From assembly GCA_013792135.1 (NCBI GenBank), contig VMSP01000023.1, positions 1 through 64,000 of the forward strand: a stretch of 64,000 nucleotides of DNA, given 5' to 3'. Positions within the stretch are counted from its first letter, which is position 1. Each line of letters opens with the position of its first letter. The notes under the pieces are model-generated. The model ran no database searches, was not told the origin of the DNA, and saw nothing but the letters and a program-made list of their open reading frames with translations. Made by a program: the position numbers and the translations under genes. The DNA comes from Desulfocapsa sp. GTDB lineage: Bacteria; Desulfobacterota; Desulfobulbia; Desulfobulbales; Desulfocapsaceae. Below are positions 48,081-57,429 of the stretch, piece by piece.

Positions 48081-49445
48081 ATGAAAACACATATTCAAGA
48101 AAAGGCCGCGCTGCTGCTGATAAGTGATAGTGTGGCGATGTCGTTCTCGTTCGTCATTGCCCTCCTCCTTGGTCATAAGGCCCATTTAACCCTTGGCCTC
48201 CTTTGTCGCCATCTCTGGGGCTTTGCGGCCCTCTTTGTTCCCACGCTCCTCATTTTCTTTGTCCTTGACGGATATGCCCTGCACAAAGTCCGGCAACGTT
48301 TTGGCCAGCAGGCATTGATCCTCGGCTGTGGGTTGCTGGCAAGTTCGATTTTGTCGACGTTTATATTCTTTTTCTTCCGGGACCCGGTTCCGCGTGCAGT
48401 ATTCCTTATTTTTTATGGAAGCGCATTCATTCTTGTTGTCTACTTCCGTAAAATCCTCAACCAACGTATGCTTACATCGACCCAATGGCTGACCCTCATT
48501 GTCGGTGACGGAAAAAGAAGTTCGGAAGTGGCGCAGTTCATCAATGCCAGTGCCTATCTTCGCACAGAAGTCGTCGGCTATGTGTCTGAAGGAAACGGGA
48601 GCCAGGCGCAGGACCACCTGCCTCACCTGGGGCACATAGACGATCTGGTTTCGATTGCCAGAGAAATGGCTGTTGATCAGGTCATCGTCGCAGTTCCCTC
48701 CCGGGACGATAACCTGATTAAATTGTTGCTGGAATGTATGCAAAGCAAGATCAAGGTTTCAGAATTCAGAAGAGTGATCGAGGAAATAACCGGCAGGGTG
48801 CCGATCGACCATCTCAATGACAACTGGTTCCTTCTTGAATTAAGCAGTTCAAATAAACGATATTTCTGGTACACGAAACGCTTAGCCGATATTGCGGTCT
48901 CCTGTATCGGGCTCTGCCTGGCATTGCCCCTGTCTCCCTTCATTGTCTTGCTGATCAAGATCGACTCACGGGGGCCGGTATTTTATTCCCAGCAACGCAT
49001 GGGAAGGGGGAGTAAGCCTTTTGTCGCCTGGAAACTGAGAACTATGGTCGATGGTGCTGACCGTAACAACGTCCACTGGACCACGGACAATGACGACCGC
49101 ATCACCCGAGTGGGCAGGATTGTGCGCAAGACGCGGCTGGATGAAGTGCCGCAGTTGCTCAATATCTTCAAGGGAGAAATGAGCCTGATCGGTCCGAGGC
49201 CGGAGGCGCTCAGCCTGGTGGAGATGTACACCAGAGAGATTCCCTATTACCCGGAACGGCATATGGTAACGCCCGGAATCACGGGCTGGGCGCAGATCAA
49301 TTATCCCTACGGCAATTCCATCGAAGATACGCGCCAGAAGCTGATGTATGATTTCTACTATATCAAAAACCGAAGTGTAATCCTTGATCTTATGATCTTT
49401 TTGCGGACGATCCGGATTGTTCTAACAGGGAAGGGGGCGATGTAG
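48081..49445 (+). CDS. Undecaprenyl-phosphate sugar phosphotransferase (WbaP/WcaJ-like polyprenyl glycosylphosphotransferase), full-length copy 1
   Basis: N-terminal TM region, ...KRLADIAVSCIGLCLALPLSPFIVLLIKIDSRGPVFYSQQRMGRGSKPFVAWKLRTM..., RLDEVPQLLNIFKGEMSLIGPRPE. Confidence 0.95.
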   Translation: MKTHIQEKAALLLISDSVAMSFSFVIALLLGHKAHLTLGLLCRHLWGFAALFVPTLLIFFVLDGYALHKVRQRFGQQALILGCGLLASSILSTFIFFFFRDPVPRAVFLIFYGSAFILVVYFRKILNQRMLTSTQWLTLIVGDGKRSSEVAQFINASAYLRTEVVGYVSEGNGSQAQDHLPHLGHIDDLVSIAREMAVDQVIVAVPSRDDNLIKLLLECMQSKIKVSEFRRVIEEITGRVPIDHLNDNWFLLELSSSNKRYFWYTKRLADIAVSCIGLCLALPLSPFIVLLIKIDSRGPVFYSQQRMGRGSKPFVAWKLRTMVDGADRNNVHWTTDNDDRITRVGRIVRKTRLDEVPQLLNIFKGEMSLIGPRPEALSLVEMYTREIPYYPERHMVTPGITGWAQINYPYGNSIEDTRQKLMYDFYYIKNRSVILDLMIFLRTIRIVLTGKGAM

Positions 49446-49487
49446 AGTTTTGTTGGGTTACGCTGGCGCTAACCCAACCTACGTGAC

Positions 49488-49516
49488 TTGACACTATTGT
49501 CACTATCCAGTACAGT
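49488..49516 (+). promoter_or_regulatory. Promoter of the Phd/PIN operon with operator-like palindrome
   Basis: TTGACA (49488-49493), N17, TACAGT (49511-49516); palindrome TGACA-CTAT-TGTCA (49489-49502) overlaps -35. Confidence 0.55.
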
Positions 49517-49565
49517 CATATCAGTTGTATTAATCATGCTAATCATATTGGTCGCAGGGGGAGCT

Positions 49566-49826
49566 ATGTTAAAAACCGTATCCGCTATAAAGGCACGCCA
49601 GAATCTCGGGCAGGTAATGAATGAGGTTTTTCTCAAGGATGATGAATATATTGTCGAGCGTTCCGGCAAACCACTGGTGGCGATTATTCCCATCGAAAAG
49701 TATCTGAATATGACAGGCAAGCGCAAAGAATTTTTCAGATTGTATGATTCGCTTCAGGGAACTGCAGATAACTCTTCATCTGTTGATGACGATATTACAG
49801 AAGCCCTGACTGCCGCACGTCGATGA
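49566..49826 (+). CDS. Phd/YefM-type antitoxin
   Basis: MLKTVSAIKARQNLGQVMNEVFLKDDEYIVERSGKPLVAIIPIEKYLNM. Confidence 0.88.
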   Translation: MLKTVSAIKARQNLGQVMNEVFLKDDEYIVERSGKPLVAIIPIEKYLNMTGKRKEFFRLYDSLQGTADNSSSVDDDITEALTAARR

Positions 49827-50254
49827 TCCGTATTGTTCTGGATACGGACCTGTTTGTCAGTGCTTTGCTCAAACCTGACTCAAATCCTGACATAATTTTA
49901 CATTTGGTCAAAGATGAGAAGGTTCTCTTACTCATGTCAGATTCTATTTGCCATGAGATCTCCAGGGTTCTGACCTATCCCAAAATCAGAAAGCGGCTTA
50001 CTGTTTCTGACGAAGAGCTAAAAAACTTTGTGCAATTGCTTGGTACTGTTGCCATCATAACCCCAGGCACCCTTAATCTACCGCCGATAGATGCTGACCC
50101 AGACGATACGAAATATCTGGTCTGTGCCGTCGAAGGGCATGCCGATTATATTGTTTCCGGCGATCATCATCTAACCGACCTGGTGATGTACCGAGGCATA
50201 CGCATCGTCACTCCGGTAGACTTCATTCAAATAGTATCCACACTCTCAGACTAA
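49823..50254 (+). CDS. PIN-domain toxin (COG1569-like)
   Basis: IRIVLDTDLFVSALLKPDSNPDIILHLV..., DPDDTKYLVCAVEGHADYIVSGDHHLTDL. Confidence 0.9.
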   Translation: MIRIVLDTDLFVSALLKPDSNPDIILHLVKDEKVLLLMSDSICHEISRVLTYPKIRKRLTVSDEELKNFVQLLGTVAIITPGTLNLPPIDADPDDTKYLVCAVEGHADYIVSGDHHLTDLVMYRGIRIVTPVDFIQIVSTLSD

Positions 50255-50269
50255 AGAAAATTTTGATTA

Positions 50270-51146
50270 TGGCTTGCTGGCAAGCTCGGTTTTGTCGACG
50301 GTCATCTCTGTTTCTTCCGGGATCCGGTCCCGCGTGCGGTGTTCCTTGTTTTTTATGGAAGCGCATTCGCTCTTGTTGTCTACTTCCGTAAAGTCCTCAA
50401 CCAACGGATGCTTGCATCGATCCAGTGGCAGACCCTCATTGTCGGTGACGGAAAAAGAAGTTTTGAAGTGGCGCAGTTGATCAACTCCAGTGCCTATCTT
50501 TGTACAGAAGTAGTCGGCTATGTGTCCGGGGGAAACGGGAGCCAGGCGCAGGGTAAGCTGCCTCGCCTGGGTGGCAGGACCTGATCACGATTGCCAGGGA
50601 AATGGCTGTTGATCAGGTCATCGTCGCCGTTCCCTCCCGGGACGATAACCTGATCAAACTTCTGCTGGAATGCATGCAAAACAAGATCAAGGTCTCAGAA
50701 TTCAGAAGAGTGATCGAAGAAATAACCGGTAGGGTGCCGATCGACCATCTCAATGCGCTGACCGTAACAACGTCCACTGGACCACGGACAATGATGACCG
50801 CATCACCCGTGTGGGCAGGATCGTGCGCAAGATGCGGCTGGATGAAGTGCCGCAGTTGCTCAATATCTTCAAGGGCGAAATGAGCCTGATCGGTCCGAGG
50901 CCGGAGGCGCTCAGCCTGGTGGAGATGTACACCAAGGAGATTGCCTATTATCCCGAACGGCATATGGTAACGCCCGGAATCACCGGCTGGGCGCAGATTA
51001 ATTACCCCTACGGCAATTCCATCGAAGATACGCGCCAGAAGCTGATGTACGATTTCTACTATATCAAGAACCGGAGCGTGGTCCTTGACCTCATGATCTT
51101 TCTGCGGACGATCCGGATTGTTCTGACAGGCAAGGGTGCGATGTAG
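50270..51146 (+). pseudogene. Sugar-transferase partial copy 2 (5'-truncated, internal deletion, frameshifted)
   Basis: Homology from GGCTTGCTGGCAAGCTCG (aligned to 48331) to the stop codon; internal deletion joins CATCTCAATG directly to CGCTGACCGTAACAACG; three ORF fragments 50339..50584, 50602..50883, 50811..51146. Confidence 0.93.
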
Positions 51147-51294
51147 AGGGATTGTTTAGGTCAACTTTGCCATATTGTTTCACCATCGTATCTGGCAATC
51201 CACTAACCCCCCTTCATCCCCCCTGAATCAGGGGGGAGACTTTGTCCCCCTCCTTGGCAAGGAGGGGTTAGGGGTGGTCGAGTGTTGCTATCTA

Positions 51295-51433
51295 GTGTCT
51301 GTCCATAAATGGTCTTTCTGCCTGATCTCTGCGTTATGCTTAATAAATAATGCTTGGAATATCATACATATGCCTGCTCTTTTTTTCCGCAGTCCTTGAT
51401 ATCGAACAAAAATCCTTATTTATGGACAGGCAC
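51295..51433. mobile_element. 139-bp MITE with 16-bp TIRs and target-site duplication
   Basis: GTGTCTGTCCATAAAT...ATTTATGGACAGGCAC flanked by TATCTA on both sides; paralogous site at about 57231-57242 (GCTATCTAAGTA) is empty. Confidence 0.88.
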
Positions 51434-51563
51434 TATCTAAGGAAATATGACAAAGTAGAATTAGTTACGGTACAAAAAAGACGTGCCTGGCCCAACCTTG
51501 TGACTTTATCCTTTTATGTGGTGAAAACTTGACCATGCGGAGAATGCACTGTATAATCTCCGC

Positions 51564-52676
51564 ATGAATAGCGGAAATAACATCTATCTCTGGCAACAGC
51601 CGGACTGGCCCCATTGGCGCTATGACACCCTGCGCCTGGCCGGATTGTTGGGCCGGGTGCACCATGCGCAAGGACACCTGCTCGGCCGCATGCGCGACTT
51701 GGGACTGGGCCTGCGCGATCAGGCCACTTTGCAGGTCTTGAGCGAGGATGTACTTAAAACCAGCGAGATCGAGGGGGAACGGCTGAACCCGGATACGGTG
51801 CGCTCTTCCATTGCACGCCGCCTGGGTGTTGATGCCGGCGCTCTGGCGCCCGCTGACCGGCATGTGGACGGCGTGGTCGATATGGTGCTGGATGCGACTG
51901 GCCGCTTCGATCAACCGTTGACCGCTGAGCGATTATTCGGCTGGCATGCCGCATTGTTTCCCACAGGGTATAGTGGCCTGGCCAGGATCCGTGCCGGTGG
52001 TTGGCGCGATGATGCCTCGGGCCCGATGCAGGTGGTTTCAGGCCCGATCGGACGGCAAAGGGTACACTTTGAGGCGCCGCCTGCTCATCGGCTGGAAGCC
52101 GAGATGGCGGATCTCTTGGACTGGTTTAATGGACGCCAGGAAGCCGATCCGGTGCTGGAGGCGAGCCTGGCCCATCTTTGGTTTGTCACTATTCATCCGT
52201 TTGACGATGGCAATGGCCGCATGGCGCGTGCGGTGGGTGACATGGCGCTGGCACGTGGAGAACAATCAACTCACCGCTTCTATAGTCTGTCGGCGCAAAT
52301 CCAGAGCGAGCGTAAAGACTATTATGACAGGCTCGAGCGCACGCAGAAAGGTTCGCTTGATGTAACCGGTTGGCTTGAATGGTTTCTGGGTTGTCTGTTG
52401 CGCGCGATAGAGGGTGCAGAGGTCACACGGTGCGCCGTGCTGATCAAGGCCCGGTTCTGGCAGCGCTGGGCAGGCATGCCGTTCAATGACCGACAAATCA
52501 AACTGCTCAATCGGCTGCTGGACGGCTTCGAAGGGAAGCTGACCAGCAGCAAGTGGGCGGCTATTGCTAAGTGCTCGCCTGATACGGCGCTACGCGACAT
52601 CACCGATCTGCTGGACCGGGGCGTGCTGAGCAAATCCGCCGCCGGAGGACGCAGCACCAGCTACCAGTTGAGTTAG
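51564..52676 (+). CDS. Fic/DOC-family AMPylase-like protein (DUF4172 N-terminus)
   Basis: Fic motif HPFDDGNGRMAR; inhibitory-helix-like TSEIEGE near N-terminus; C-terminal winged helix (KWAAIAKCSPDTALRDITDLLDRGVL). Confidence 0.93.
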   Translation: MNSGNNIYLWQQPDWPHWRYDTLRLAGLLGRVHHAQGHLLGRMRDLGLGLRDQATLQVLSEDVLKTSEIEGERLNPDTVRSSIARRLGVDAGALAPADRHVDGVVDMVLDATGRFDQPLTAERLFGWHAALFPTGYSGLARIRAGGWRDDASGPMQVVSGPIGRQRVHFEAPPAHRLEAEMADLLDWFNGRQEADPVLEASLAHLWFVTIHPFDDGNGRMARAVGDMALARGEQSTHRFYSLSAQIQSERKDYYDRLERTQKGSLDVTGWLEWFLGCLLRAIEGAEVTRCAVLIKARFWQRWAGMPFNDRQIKLLNRLLDGFEGKLTSSKWAAIAKCSPDTALRDITDLLDRGVLSKSAAGGRSTSYQLS

Positions 52677-52926
52677 ATGCTCTTAAAAGGGGACGCTACC
52701 CTTATTGAGGATATTCTTCAGCTATGCCAAAACCTTAGTCCCCCTCCTTCAGTTTAAGAACACGAAAAGTGCGAAAAGGGGACGCTACCCTTTTCATTCT
52801 TTTCATCAATGCCCTTTTCATGAACAAGCCAGCCGGCAAAAATACCGGCATAATTTTTATGATAAATAGTTAAAAATATATTATATACAGTTAGATAAAA
52901 CTGCATATAAACCGGCAACAACGATT

Positions 52927-54135
52927 TTGCATCTTGGGATGCTTATGGATATGACTTCTTCGCTTTACTCTTTCCCGCATCAATTTGAGCCTCTGCTGCC
53001 GCAGAAGGAGATTGACGCGTTGCGCGCTAAGGCAAGCCAGGTCGTGGAGCAGTCTCTGCGTCTCGGTGCGATGGCACATGCAGCCACTCTGACGGAATTG
53101 CGTGTGTTACTGCGAGAGATGAATAGTTATTACAGCAACCGTATCGAGGGGCAGGGTACGCATCCCTATAGAATTCGTCAGGCACTGCTCAAAAATTTCT
53201 CGGATCAGCCTGACATCGCGCGCTTGCAGCGTGTCGCGGTGGCCCATATCCAGGCGGAAATTGAGTTGGAGTTGCTGGTTGAGGCTGGCGAGTCTCCTTA
53301 TCCGGCCGCCTTTGTTCAGCGGGCGCACGCGGCTTTGTATGGCCGGTTGGCTGAAGCGGACAGAACCACTGCCGACGGTCTTCTTTTGGAGCCGGGGGGG
53401 CTGCGCCGTGACTTGCGGAGTGTGGGACACCATGTGCCGCCGACTGCGGAATCACTGCCCGCGTTTTTCAAACGATACGATGAGGTGTATGCAGCGTCTC
53501 GATCCTGGGAAGAGCGCCTTATTGCTATTGCTTGCGCGCACCAGCGTATGGCCTGGATTCATCCCTTTGCCGATGGCAACGGTCGGGCGGTGCGTTTGCA
53601 TACGCATGCGGCGCTGTTTCCCCTGACCCAGGGGCTCTGGTCAGTAAACCGGGGGTTGGCCCGGCGACAGCAGGACTACTATGCCAGGTTGGCGGATGCC
53701 GATGAGCCCCGGCTGGGGGACCTTGATGGGCGTGGCAATTTGAGCGAGCAGGGTCTGCGCAACTGGTGCCATTTTTTTCTTGATCAGTGTCTGAATCAGG
53801 TTGGATTCATGGCTCGTATGCTGGATCTGGGGCAGATGAAGGAGCGGATTCGAGGGTTGATTTCGTTCCGCATGGCGCAAGACAAGGCTTTACGACCGGA
53901 GGCGGTGTTGCCGTTTTATCACCTTTTCGCAGCAGGGCCTGTTTCCCGTGGAGAGTTTCAACAAATGACCGGGTTGGGTCAACGGGTCAGCCGGGCGTTA
54001 CTTTCCCGGTTAATCAGCATTGGTCTGGTCAAATCCGCCAGCCATGTGAGCCCGGTGAGTTTCGCCTTGCCGCTGGATGCTCTACAGTTTCTGTTGCCGG
54101 AGCTCTACCCGGAGGCGGCGACACGAGTCGAGTAA
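52927..54135 (+). CDS. Fic/DOC-family protein
   Basis: Fic motif HPFADGNGRAVR; N-terminal YYSNRIEGQ. Confidence 0.92.
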   Translation: MHLGMLMDMTSSLYSFPHQFEPLLPQKEIDALRAKASQVVEQSLRLGAMAHAATLTELRVLLREMNSYYSNRIEGQGTHPYRIRQALLKNFSDQPDIARLQRVAVAHIQAEIELELLVEAGESPYPAAFVQRAHAALYGRLAEADRTTADGLLLEPGGLRRDLRSVGHHVPPTAESLPAFFKRYDEVYAASRSWEERLIAIACAHQRMAWIHPFADGNGRAVRLHTHAALFPLTQGLWSVNRGLARRQQDYYARLADADEPRLGDLDGRGNLSEQGLRNWCHFFLDQCLNQVGFMARMLDLGQMKERIRGLISFRMAQDKALRPEAVLPFYHLFAAGPVSRGEFQQMTGLGQRVSRALLSRLISIGLVKSASHVSPVSFALPLDALQFLLPELYPEAATRVE

Positions 54136-54183
54136 CAAGAAAAGGATACAGGAATTACAAATTTACCGTTTTTGAACATGTAG

Positions 54184-54244
54184 GTCGGACTTCAGTCCGA
54201 TAACTGCGGTAGTATTAAGCCCTGCTGTCGGACTGAAGTCCGAC
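54184..54244. repeat. Inverted repeat GTCGGACTTCAGTCCGA / TCGGACTGAAGTCCGAC
   Basis: Arms at 54184-54200 and 54228-54244. Confidence 0.8.
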
Positions 54245-54431
54245 TTACTCCTATGGCCAACATCTGGTAATTCAGCAATTTCCGAGTCCCTAACAAGAAA
54301 AGAACAAGAAAAGGGGACGCTATTATGACAATCTGGACTTTTGCGAGATTGTCAACTTTGTGACTTCTCTGCAGGGCTCTTGGCTATCACGCTTAGTGTG
54401 ATATGTTGTGTTATAGGTATGGAGTGGTGGC

Positions 54432-54839
54432 GTGAAGGTTTTTAAAAATGCATGGTTTGGGCGTTTCGTCCGGAAAGAGAAAATTTCAGCCGATGCGCTA
54501 TGGGATGCTGTCAAGCGTGCGGAAAATGGGCAGATCGATGCTGATCTTGGTGGTGGTGTTATCAAACAGCGGATTGCCCGTCCGGGAAAAGGTAAGTCTA
54601 AGGGGTATCGCACTATAGTTCTGTTTCGCAAGAGTGAAAAGTCGTTTTTCGTATATGGTTTTGCTAAAAGTGAGCTCAGTAATGTCGGCGAGGCTGAAGA
54701 AGAACAGTTCAATTCCAATTTGCATTCAAGCCGGCACCTTCGTCGGCTGCCCTGTGCGGCTCCTCACCGTACTGCCCGTACTGCTTCGTCGCCGCTCGTT
54801 TGCCTTCTCGGTGTCAACTTGAATGCTTTTTGGAATTAG
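54432..54839 (+). pseudogene. HigB/RelE-type toxin gene interrupted by a ~126-bp element
   Basis: MKVFKNAWFGRFVRKEKISADALWDAVKRAENGQIDADLGGGVIKQRIARPGKGKSKGYRTIVLFRKSEKSFFVYGFAKSEL is toxin-like; the last ~36 residues come from inserted DNA; toxin C-terminus KKMAKYVLALTDEQLSELVASGPFEEVA resumes at about 54838. Confidence 0.82.
54712..54837. mobile_element. ~126-bp TIR-bearing element inserted in higB
   Basis: Ends ATTCCAATTTGCATTCAAG...CTTGAATGCTTTTTGGAAT are imperfect inverted repeats; removal restores ...EEEQFKKMAKYVLALTDEQL... in frame. Confidence 0.75.
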
Positions 54840-54924
54840 AAAATGGCCAAGTATGTTTTGGCCCTGACGGATGAGCAGTTAAGTGAGTTGGTTGCAAGTG
54901 GACCGTTTGAGGAGGTTGCATAAG

Positions 54925-55242
54925 ATGGCCAGGAAATATCGCAGTGATGCCTTTGCCGCTATCCATGAAACGATGGAGGCGCTGCATGAGGTGGGCGCCA
55001 TTGAAAAGAAGACGATGCGCGAGTTCGATGATGCGTGCCTGACCCCAGTGCAAGAACTCAGTCCTGAAGAGATAAAGTCTCTTCGGTTACGTGAGCACAT
55101 CTCCCAGCCTGTTTTTGCCCGTTATCTGAATGTTTCCAGGAATCTGGTTTCCGATTGGGAGCGGGGTGTGAAGAAGCCTGGTGGGCCGGCTTTGCGTTTG
55201 CTGACCGTAATCCAGAAGAAAGGGCTCATGGCGATTGCGTAG
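54925..55242 (+). CDS. HigA-type XRE antitoxin
   Basis: MARKYRSDAFAAIHETMEALHEVGAIEKKTMREFDDACL...SPEEIKSLRLREHISQPVFARYLNVSRNLVSDWERGVKKPGGPALRLL. Confidence 0.9.
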   Translation: MARKYRSDAFAAIHETMEALHEVGAIEKKTMREFDDACLTPVQELSPEEIKSLRLREHISQPVFARYLNVSRNLVSDWERGVKKPGGPALRLLTVIQKKGLMAIA

Positions 55243-55265
55243 CAGCGGGTTCCCCTCTCTGCTGA

Positions 55266-55593
55266 GATCGTGCGCAAGTCGCGGCTGGATGAAGTGCCGC
55301 AGTTGCTCAATATCCTCAAGGGCGAAATGAGCCTGATCGGTCCGCGGCCGGAGGCGCTTAGCTTGGTGGAGATGTACACCAGAGAGATTCCCTATTACCC
55401 GGAACGGCATATGGTAACGCCCGGAATCACGGGCTGGGCGCAGATTAATTACTCCTACGCCAATTCTATCGAAGATACACGCCAGAAACTGATGTACGAT
55501 TTCTACTATATCAAGAACCGGAGCGTTGTCCTTGACCTCATGATCTTTCTGCGGACGATCCGGATTGTTTTGACAGGCAAGGGTGCGATGTAG
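55266..55593 (+). pseudogene. Sugar-transferase partial copy 3 (last ~107 codons)
   Basis: KSRLDEVPQLLNILKGEMSLIGPRPEALSLVEMYTREIPYYPERHMVTPGITGWAQINYSYANSIEDTRQKLMYDFYYIKNRSVVLDLMIFLRTIRIVLTGKGAM. Confidence 0.95.
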
Positions 55594-55706
55594 GGGGATT
55601 GTTGGGTTGTTGGGTTACGGCACAAAAAAGACGTGCCTAGCCCGATCTACGTGACTGCGAGACTTTGGGCTTGCTGAAACAGCGTTGGCTGGGGTGGGTG
55701 TAAATT

Positions 55707-55743
55707 ATATTCCATTGACGGAATATTCCATTGAGGCTATAGT
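55707..55743 (+). promoter_or_regulatory. higBA promoter/operator
   Basis: ATATTCC-ATTGAC-GGAATAT palindrome (55707-55726) overlapping TTGACG (55715-55720), N17, TATAGT (55738-55743); ATG at 55750. Confidence 0.6.
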
Positions 55744-55749
55744 TGTGTT

Positions 55750-56115
55750 ATGATTTGGGAAGTCGAATACACCGATGAGTTCGGTGATTGGTGGAACAGC
55801 CTGACAGAAGAGGAACAGGAGTCGCTGGATGCCTCTGTCCGTTTGCTCGAAGAGCGAGGACCGGCCTTGGGCTTTCCGCACAGTAGCGGGATCAACGGGT
55901 CCAAGCATGGTCATATGCGAGAACTCCGAACTCAACACGACGGCAGGCCATTGCGTACGCTGTATGCGTTCGATCCGCAACGGTCGGCTATTTTGCTGAT
56001 TGGTGGTGATAAGACGGGTGACGACCGCTGGTATGACAAGCACGTTCCCATCGCCGATCGACTCTACGATGAACACATGGAGCAACTTCGAAAGGGAGGA
56101 CTAATCGATGGCTAA
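55750..56115 (+). CDS. HigB/RelE-family (phage Gp49-like) toxin
   Basis: MIWEVEYTDEFGDWWNSLTEEEQESLDASVRLLEERGPALGFPHSSGINGSKHGHMRELRTQHDGRPLRTLYAFDPQRSAILLIGGDK. Confidence 0.9.
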   Translation: MIWEVEYTDEFGDWWNSLTEEEQESLDASVRLLEERGPALGFPHSSGINGSKHGHMRELRTQHDGRPLRTLYAFDPQRSAILLIGGDKTGDDRWYDKHVPIADRLYDEHMEQLRKGGLIDG

Positions 56116-56434
56116 GAAATTTTCTGAACTCCGCGCACAAATGTCGCCCGAGTCACGGGCACGGGTAGAGGCCAAAGCTCAAGCCATGTTGGCTGAGATG
56201 CCTCTTAACGAACTGCGCCAAGCGCGCGGACTGTCGCAGAAGATGCTGGCAGAGGTGCTGCATGTCCAACAGCCCTCCATCGCCAAACTGGAGAAGCGGA
56301 CGGACATGTACCTGTCCACACTGCGCAGCCATATCGAGGCAATGGGCGGCCAGCTTGAGGTGGTCGCGCGTTTTCCGGATGGTGCGGTCAAGATCAGCAA
56401 TTTCTCTGACCTTGGGAAAAAAGTCACGGCGTGA
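56108..56434 (+). CDS. HigA-type XRE antitoxin
   Basis: MPLNELRQARGLSQKMLAEVLHVQQPSIAKLEKRTDMYLSTLRSHIEAMGGQLEVVARFPDG. Confidence 0.92.
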   Translation: MAKKFSELRAQMSPESRARVEAKAQAMLAEMPLNELRQARGLSQKMLAEVLHVQQPSIAKLEKRTDMYLSTLRSHIEAMGGQLEVVARFPDGAVKISNFSDLGKKVTA

Positions 56435-56540
56435 CCTGCTATAAGGAAAACTAGCATGTAGGTTGGAATAACGGCAGCGTAACCCGACCTCCACAATCCA
56501 CACCGAAGCCAAAAGGCCTTGCTCTGCAGGTGTGTACCCT

Positions 56541-57092
56541 TGGCCTCCTGTATTGGGCTCTGCTTGGCATTGCCCCTGTTTCCCTTTATTGCCCTACCGA
56601 TCAAGCCGCGATTCGCGGGGGCCGGTATTCTATTCTCAGCAACGCATGGGGCGAGGGAGTAACCCTTTTATCGTCTGGAAGCTGAGGACCATGGTCGATG
56701 GCGCTGATCGCAATAATGTCCACTGGACCACGGATAATGACGACCGCCTTACCCGGGTGGGCAGGTTCATACGCAAGACGCGGCTGGATGAAGTGCCCCA
56801 GCTGTTGAATATCTTCAAGGGCGAAATGAGCCTGATCGGTCCGAGGCCGGAGGCGCTCAGCCTGGTGGAGATGTACACCAAGGAGATTGCCTATTATCCC
56901 GAACGGCATATGGTAACGCCCGGAATCACCGGCTGGGCGCAGATCAATTACCCCTACGGCAATTCCATCGAAGATACGCGCCAGAAGCTGATGTACGATT
57001 TCTACTATATCAAGAACCGCAGCATAGTCCTTGATCTCATGATCTTTCTGCGGACGATCCGGATTGTTCTGACAGGCAAGGGTGCGATGTAG
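56541..57092 (+). pseudogene. Sugar-transferase partial copy 4 (catalytic domain only)
   Basis: Homology from TCCTGTATTGGGCTCTGC (aligned to 48901) to the stop; ORF 56532..57092 carries RGPVFYSQQRMGRGSNPFIVWKLRTM...GKGAM. Confidence 0.95.
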
Positions 57093-57429
57093 GAGATTGT
57101 TTAGGTCAACTTTGCCATATTGTTTCACCATCGTATTTGGCAATTCACTACCCCCCTTCATCCCCCCTGAATCAAGGGGGAGACTTTGTCCCCCTCCTTG
57201 GCAAGGAGGGGTTAGGGGTGGTCGAGTGTTGCTATCTAAGTAAATATGACAAAGTAGAATTAGTTACGGTACAAAAAAACCTGCCTGGCCCAACCAACGG
57301 TGGGCTGATCCTGTTTGATAAAACTGCTTATCGGAAAAATATATTCCCTGACGCCAGGGTAAGCTGTGCCCGATTTAGGGGAAGCGATAAAGTAGAGTTC
57401 AATGTGATTCCTTGTGATCAATGCAACCA

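Follow-up and report, generated by a model that had tools for sequence, protein, structure and literature searches.

The window, by which we mean the whole 64,000-nucleotide stretch of a Desulfocapsa sp. contig (VMSP01000023.1, positions 1 to 64,000) analyzed here, contains a non-autonomous DNA transposon of 139 bp, i.e., a MITE, which has the 16-bp ends of ISNCY-family insertion sequences (ISs). Its core is common to elements bearing IS5-type, DUF772/DDE_Tnp_1-type, or IS1182-like ends, and the length of the target duplication follows the type of the ends. The explanation that we consider best, with a probability of roughly 85%, is that several transposases have moved one hairpin core and that its two ends have been exchanged together, as a matched pair. 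The usual practice is to class MITEs by their ends and to see in them the decayed remains of a single transposon. In the present family, it appears to be the ends that are exchanged and the core that endures, and a likely helper IS was identified for four end types.

The inserted element and its empty site

The features discussed below are as follows, in positions of the window.

51289-51294, no strand: left TATCTA copy of the 6-bp target duplication
51295-51433, no strand: 139-bp MITE with type A tips
51295-51310, + strand: left terminal inverted repeat, GTGTCTGTCCATAAAT, the same ends being found on ISNCY-family ISs
51311-51417, no strand: core common to elements with five end types; in the folded element, it makes up the upper portion of a long imperfect hairpin
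51353-51376, + strand: best-conserved stretch of the core, located at the apex of the hairpin, CTYGGAATATCnnnTATATGCCTG
51418-51433, - strand: right terminal inverted repeat, GTGCCTGTCCATAAAT on the - strand
51434-51439, no strand: right TATCTA copy of the 6-bp target duplication
57233-57238, no strand: empty site of the pre-insertion type, with a single TATCTA, in a paralogous copy

The initial annotation of this DNA had proposed a 139-bp MITE with 16-bp terminal inverted repeats (TIRs) differing by one mismatch and an empty site preserved in the tail of a paralogous copy, and all of these proposals are borne out. The left and right TIRs indeed differ at one position, and when the MITE and one TATCTA were removed in silico, the flanks aligned to the paralogue, which has a lone TATCTA, without a gap at the junction (94.8% identity over 540 bp on the left and 95.4% over 65 bp on the right). 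The element is short, lacks coding capacity, is repeated, possesses TIRs and a target duplication, and has its ends in common with autonomous ISs of related genomes, as is expected of a MITE. Searches with the TIR pattern gave 21 matches in the genome of origin at up to two mismatches, against 3 for a reversed control pattern, and 180 matches in four relatives at up to one mismatch, against 0 for the control. For the target duplication, the alternatives of TATCTA and a 4-bp ATCT had been left side by side; the former stands and the latter is ruled out for type A, because an exact 6-bp duplication surrounds 47 of the 90 type A members (permutation mean 2.7, largest 9) and a 4-bp one is seen in just 1.

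The region from 48081 to 57092 holds the 3' part of a sugar-transferase gene in one full and three partial copies, a 300-nt stretch of which is 93-96% identical among the four, and the short genes between the copies resemble toxin-antitoxin and Fic-type genes, names that were assigned by eye alone. The tails of the two remaining sugar-transferase copies are different and uninformative on the empty site. That the insertion occurred later than the segmental duplication, as had been proposed, is retained as the simplest reading of the filled and empty sites. The transposase would have been of the ISNCY type and provided in trans by an IS that has since been lost or was never resident; it would have bound both ends and joined the element to the TATCTA site with a 6-bp stagger once the sugar-transferase segment was already duplicated. 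If, instead, the insertion predated the duplication and copy 4 regained its empty site by precise excision or gene conversion, the same sequence picture would be left, but precisely 145 bp, one copy of the duplication among them, would have to have been lost, and we regard such a history as very unlikely.

The expectation that the element is repeated elsewhere was confirmed with the 139-bp query, which gave 19 matches in the 4.2-Mb assembly of origin and many more in relatives. Seven of the former are full copies with type A ends (139-141 bp), most of which have exact 6-bp duplications, and one is a fragment; the others match the core alone (positions 13-127) or part of it and are bordered by different ends, either GGGTACCTTGAAAAAT (end type B) or, in one copy, GAGCCTCTTGCAAAAT (end type C), with 4-bp duplications. 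One B-ended copy is found with the same flanks in this genome and two other species of the genus (L010, L055, and L056), so the insertion was probably inherited or else transferred with its surroundings. A solitary C-type end, GAGCCTCTTGCAAAAG, lies without a nearby partner just beyond the end of the window (contig positions 66536-66551; L094 2537-2552).

Distribution in Desulfobacterota

Matches to the element were found in 29 of the 38 related genomes searched. A scan for the central motif, with one genome per species, revealed at least 118 stretches from Desulfobulbaceae, Desulfocapsaceae, Desulfobacteraceae, Desulfosarcina, other Desulfobacterota, and bins broadly labeled as deltaproteobacterial or proteobacterial. 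The family is large and is found in sulfate reducers and related bacteria. In Desulfobacterota, the core of about 109 bp recurs with five end types, A to E, and the two ends of one copy are nearly always of the same type: the copies classed by both ends comprise 91 AA, 50 BB, 27 CC, 13 EE, and 7 DD. Roughly two dozen copies fall outside these classes, mostly because they are truncated at contig ends, nested, or decayed, and a few of them have a further variant end. The alignment used below consists of 164 distinct full-length copies, many of which were gathered via the core motif, so that the sampling favors conserved cores; this bias is smaller for the B copies found by the type A query in the genome of origin. 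Searches of IMG/VR, plasmids, and phages gave no match to the family, and thus no vector was identified.

One relative (G014) has about 40 closely similar type A copies, and no ISNCY partner was found in it, which looks like a recent burst without a visible helper. In another (G032), three copies (L086 3178-3336, L087 3085-3244, and L088 3014-3172) keep the type A ends and the outer arms and have an unrelated hairpin, GAAAGTGCTCACGGAC..GTCCGCGGAGTTTATACCCGTCAGGGTGC, in place of the central one, suggesting that the center can be exchanged too.

End types, target duplications, and partner ISs

The duplication length goes with the end type, being 6 bp for A, 4 bp for B and C, and 6 bp for E. In addition to the type A counts given above, exact 4-bp duplications were found for 35 of 50 B elements (permutation mean 2.7) and 21 of 26 C elements (permutation mean 1.3). 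Exact 6-bp duplications were found for 8 of 12 E elements with GAG..CTC taken as the boundaries (permutation mean 0.9), although those of E become 4 bp if the boundaries are set as TGAG..CTCA. The usual target of A elements is TANNTA, and the duplications in the family are thus 6 bp of the form TANNTA, 4 bp, or 6 bp of the form ANNNNT. Four of the end types match the ends of distinct ISs, i.e., an ISNCY IS for A, an IS5 IS for B, a DUF772/DDE_Tnp_1 IS for C, and an IS1182-like IS for E.

The initial annotation had suggested a search for a transposase-bearing IS with the ends of the MITE, and such ISs, also with 6-bp duplications, were found in related genomes but not in the genome of origin, which gave no match to the ISNCY partner transposase. 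They were located with the model of the ISNCY family, after end matching had disclosed no partner IS in G014, G037, and G032. These ISNCY-family ISs are about 1.69 kb in length, have 6-bp TANNTA duplications, and encode a DDE_Tnp_1 transposase of ~455 aa. The 1691-bp IS in G187, for example, has the ends GTGCCTGTCCATAAAC and GTGCCTGTCCATGAGG, a TACCTA duplication, and a broken transposase gene, and its relatives of 1.67-1.85 kb have open transposase frames and the duplications TAGCTA, TAACTA, AACCTA, and TAGTTA. Three of the A-partner transposases were scanned and scored 414-480 bits with NF033593 (ISNCY), the cut-off of which is 325. The terminal 12-16 bp are common to the type A elements and the ISNCY ISs, and near matches to the variant A ends, GTGYCCATCCAGAAAC, are found on IS variants, GTGTCCATCCGGAAAC. 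We presume that the A partners might belong to the ISDol1 subgroup of the family. A decayed ISNCY candidate exists in the same genus (L179).

The partner of type B is an intact 1302-bp IS5-family IS with a TATA duplication in the genome of origin (L140), and many copies of a 1334-bp relative are present in G020; the transposases exceeded the NF033581 (IS5) cut-off of 140 bits, with scores of 276 and 280. Type C has a broken partner IS in the genome of origin (L093) and intact partners in G026 and others, with the 4-bp duplications ATTT, TTAA, or CTTA. The partner of type E is a 2.1-kb multi-copy IS in G144, whose transposase is encoded in two overlapping reading frames. The C- and E-partner transposases scored 86 and 79 bits with NF033551 (IS1182), far under its cut-off of 270, and are therefore regarded as related to the IS1182 family but not as members of it by that test. 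Elements with end type D, CTAGGAGGYTGTCCRAGAATG, have a more diverged core (L066 302-406, L202, L212, L215, L261, and L289), and neither a partner IS nor a clear duplication was found for them.

A single core that carries the ends of several transposons, with the matching duplication lengths, would be explained by movement by several transposases, and the duplication length would then be a built-in readout of the acting helper.

Proposed replacement of the ends

The identity of the cores does not track the type of the ends. Mean core identity is 0.72 between A and B and 0.77 within A, whereas mean end identity is 0.79 within A and 0.36 between A and B. Closely related cores occur across end types, with identities of 94.5% for an A-B pair, 94.5% for an A-C pair, and 95.4% for a B-C pair, and A/E pairs from the same genome have cores that are 93% and 91% identical. 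In the most striking pair, A_L232 and E_L193, the cores are 97% identical and the ends 46%, which suggests that the ends were replaced rather than drifted. Where the cores are 94-97% identical, the pairs differ at both ends and the change does not extend beyond about the last 16 bases. Such near-identical core pairs support the view that both ends were replaced abruptly. On the core tree, the forks of which are weak, 14 changes of end type are needed where 3 would suffice, and none of the bootstrap core trees keeps any end type together; in AU tests, a single origin per end type was not rejected (p 0.06-0.20).

The ends might instead have changed stepwise as the transposases, all of one DDE superfamily, diverged, with the core changing less and no exchange taking place. 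The similarity of the A, D, and E ends (mean identity 0.55-0.60) and of the C and E ends (0.63) agrees with such gradual drift, as does the fact that all four partner transposases have DUF772 and DDE-type matches, some of which are just under the Pfam cut-off. Drift is, however, difficult to reconcile with sharply different ends on 94-97% identical cores and with duplication lengths that differ among end types, and it is particularly strained by the 97% A/E core pair; we consider it improbable. If the ends were replaced as matched pairs, the most plausible route would be that a new end was acquired on one side and then duplicated on the other through template switching or hairpin-templated repair, and pairwise replacement of this kind seems plausible because both ends sit together at the base of one hairpin.

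The hairpin core

The whole element can be folded as one imperfect hairpin, with a fold z-score of -3.28 relative to shuffled sequences. Pairing was found in 91% of the alignment cells for the ends, 89% for the arms, and 95% for the center, as compared with 35-56% when the partner was slid by one or two columns, though the structure was derived from E copies of the same alignment and the comparison thus leans towards it. Pairs changed on both sides, i.e., compensatory changes, account for 12 of 15 in the ends, 10 of 18 in the arms, and 10 of 18 in the center. The apex is nearly invariant and the two arms retain fixed differences, which argues that the core is not merely a palindrome undergoing homogenization. 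The conserved pairing, together with these conserved asymmetries, suggests that the core has been retained as a structure.

The compensatory changes and the nearly invariant apex might also be expected if the core were a functional host or RNA element, for instance a hairpin with a role in regulation or processing, and had been captured by different transposons because it benefits the host. Six loci that represent A, B, and related copies, however, gave no Rfam match over the gathering score, the wobble-pair counts, used to look for a strand-specific RNA, showed just a mild strand bias, and the center has been replaced in the G032 copies that have the same ends and arms, so that a host function seems unlikely. 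As for the preferred reading of one core moved by several transposases, it may be carried a step further: what endures could be the hairpin core itself, acting as a selfish structured chassis that is widespread in Desulfobacterota, exchanges matched pairs of ends again and again, is mobilized by one IS family after another, and outlives each helper. We would put even odds on this extension.

Relation to known elements

The conserved interior with differing TIRs has one precedent that we found, the coral CMITEs, within an incomplete coverage of the literature. CMITEs are small MITE families with different TIRs and a highly conserved interior, for which cross-mobilization by several transposons has been proposed (PMC2872659). 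They are eukaryotic and piggyBac-like, and all have TTAA duplications and a common CC[C/T]T end motif (PMC2872659). The present family likewise has an interior that is more conserved than its TIRs, but it differs from CMITEs in having the ends of four distinct IS types, differing duplication lengths, and a conserved hairpin core, and lacks their TTAA duplications and piggyBac-type ends. Classical bacterial MITEs (Correia/NEMIS, ERIC, RUP, Chunjie, and QMITE2) are described in the passages considered from two reviews as gene-less elements of ~100-240 bp with TIRs, target duplications, and the potential to form long stem-loops, and as being mobilized in trans by an IS (PMC2229807, PMC10969869), and the family resembles them in being gene-less and in its TIRs, target duplications, and stem-loop potential. 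The same passages (PMC10969869, PMC2229807) gave no bacterial case of one core with the ends of several ISs, which is weak evidence of novelty given the incomplete coverage of the literature. The ISNCY ISs (NF033593) agree with the type A MITE in their terminal 12-16 bp and 6-bp TANNTA duplications; in contrast to the MITE, they encode a transposase, and beyond the ends, nothing of the MITE core was seen in them, indicating that the MITE did not arise from the IS by a simple internal deletion.

Classification by ends alone would split the present family into five. The family also opens two questions to testing, namely by what route non-autonomous elements obtain new helpers and whether selection acts on MITE cores.

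A tiny palindrome of ~23 nt, GGAGTCTCGnAnnCTCGCTTACC, occurs both within MITE copies, at varied positions, and elsewhere (L077-L085, L120, L128, L191, L195, L207, L213, and L272), and once in the window, at ~11325. In the window and 1.66 Mb of retrieved sequence combined, it was found at 30 distinct sites, as compared with 0 for the reversed motif.
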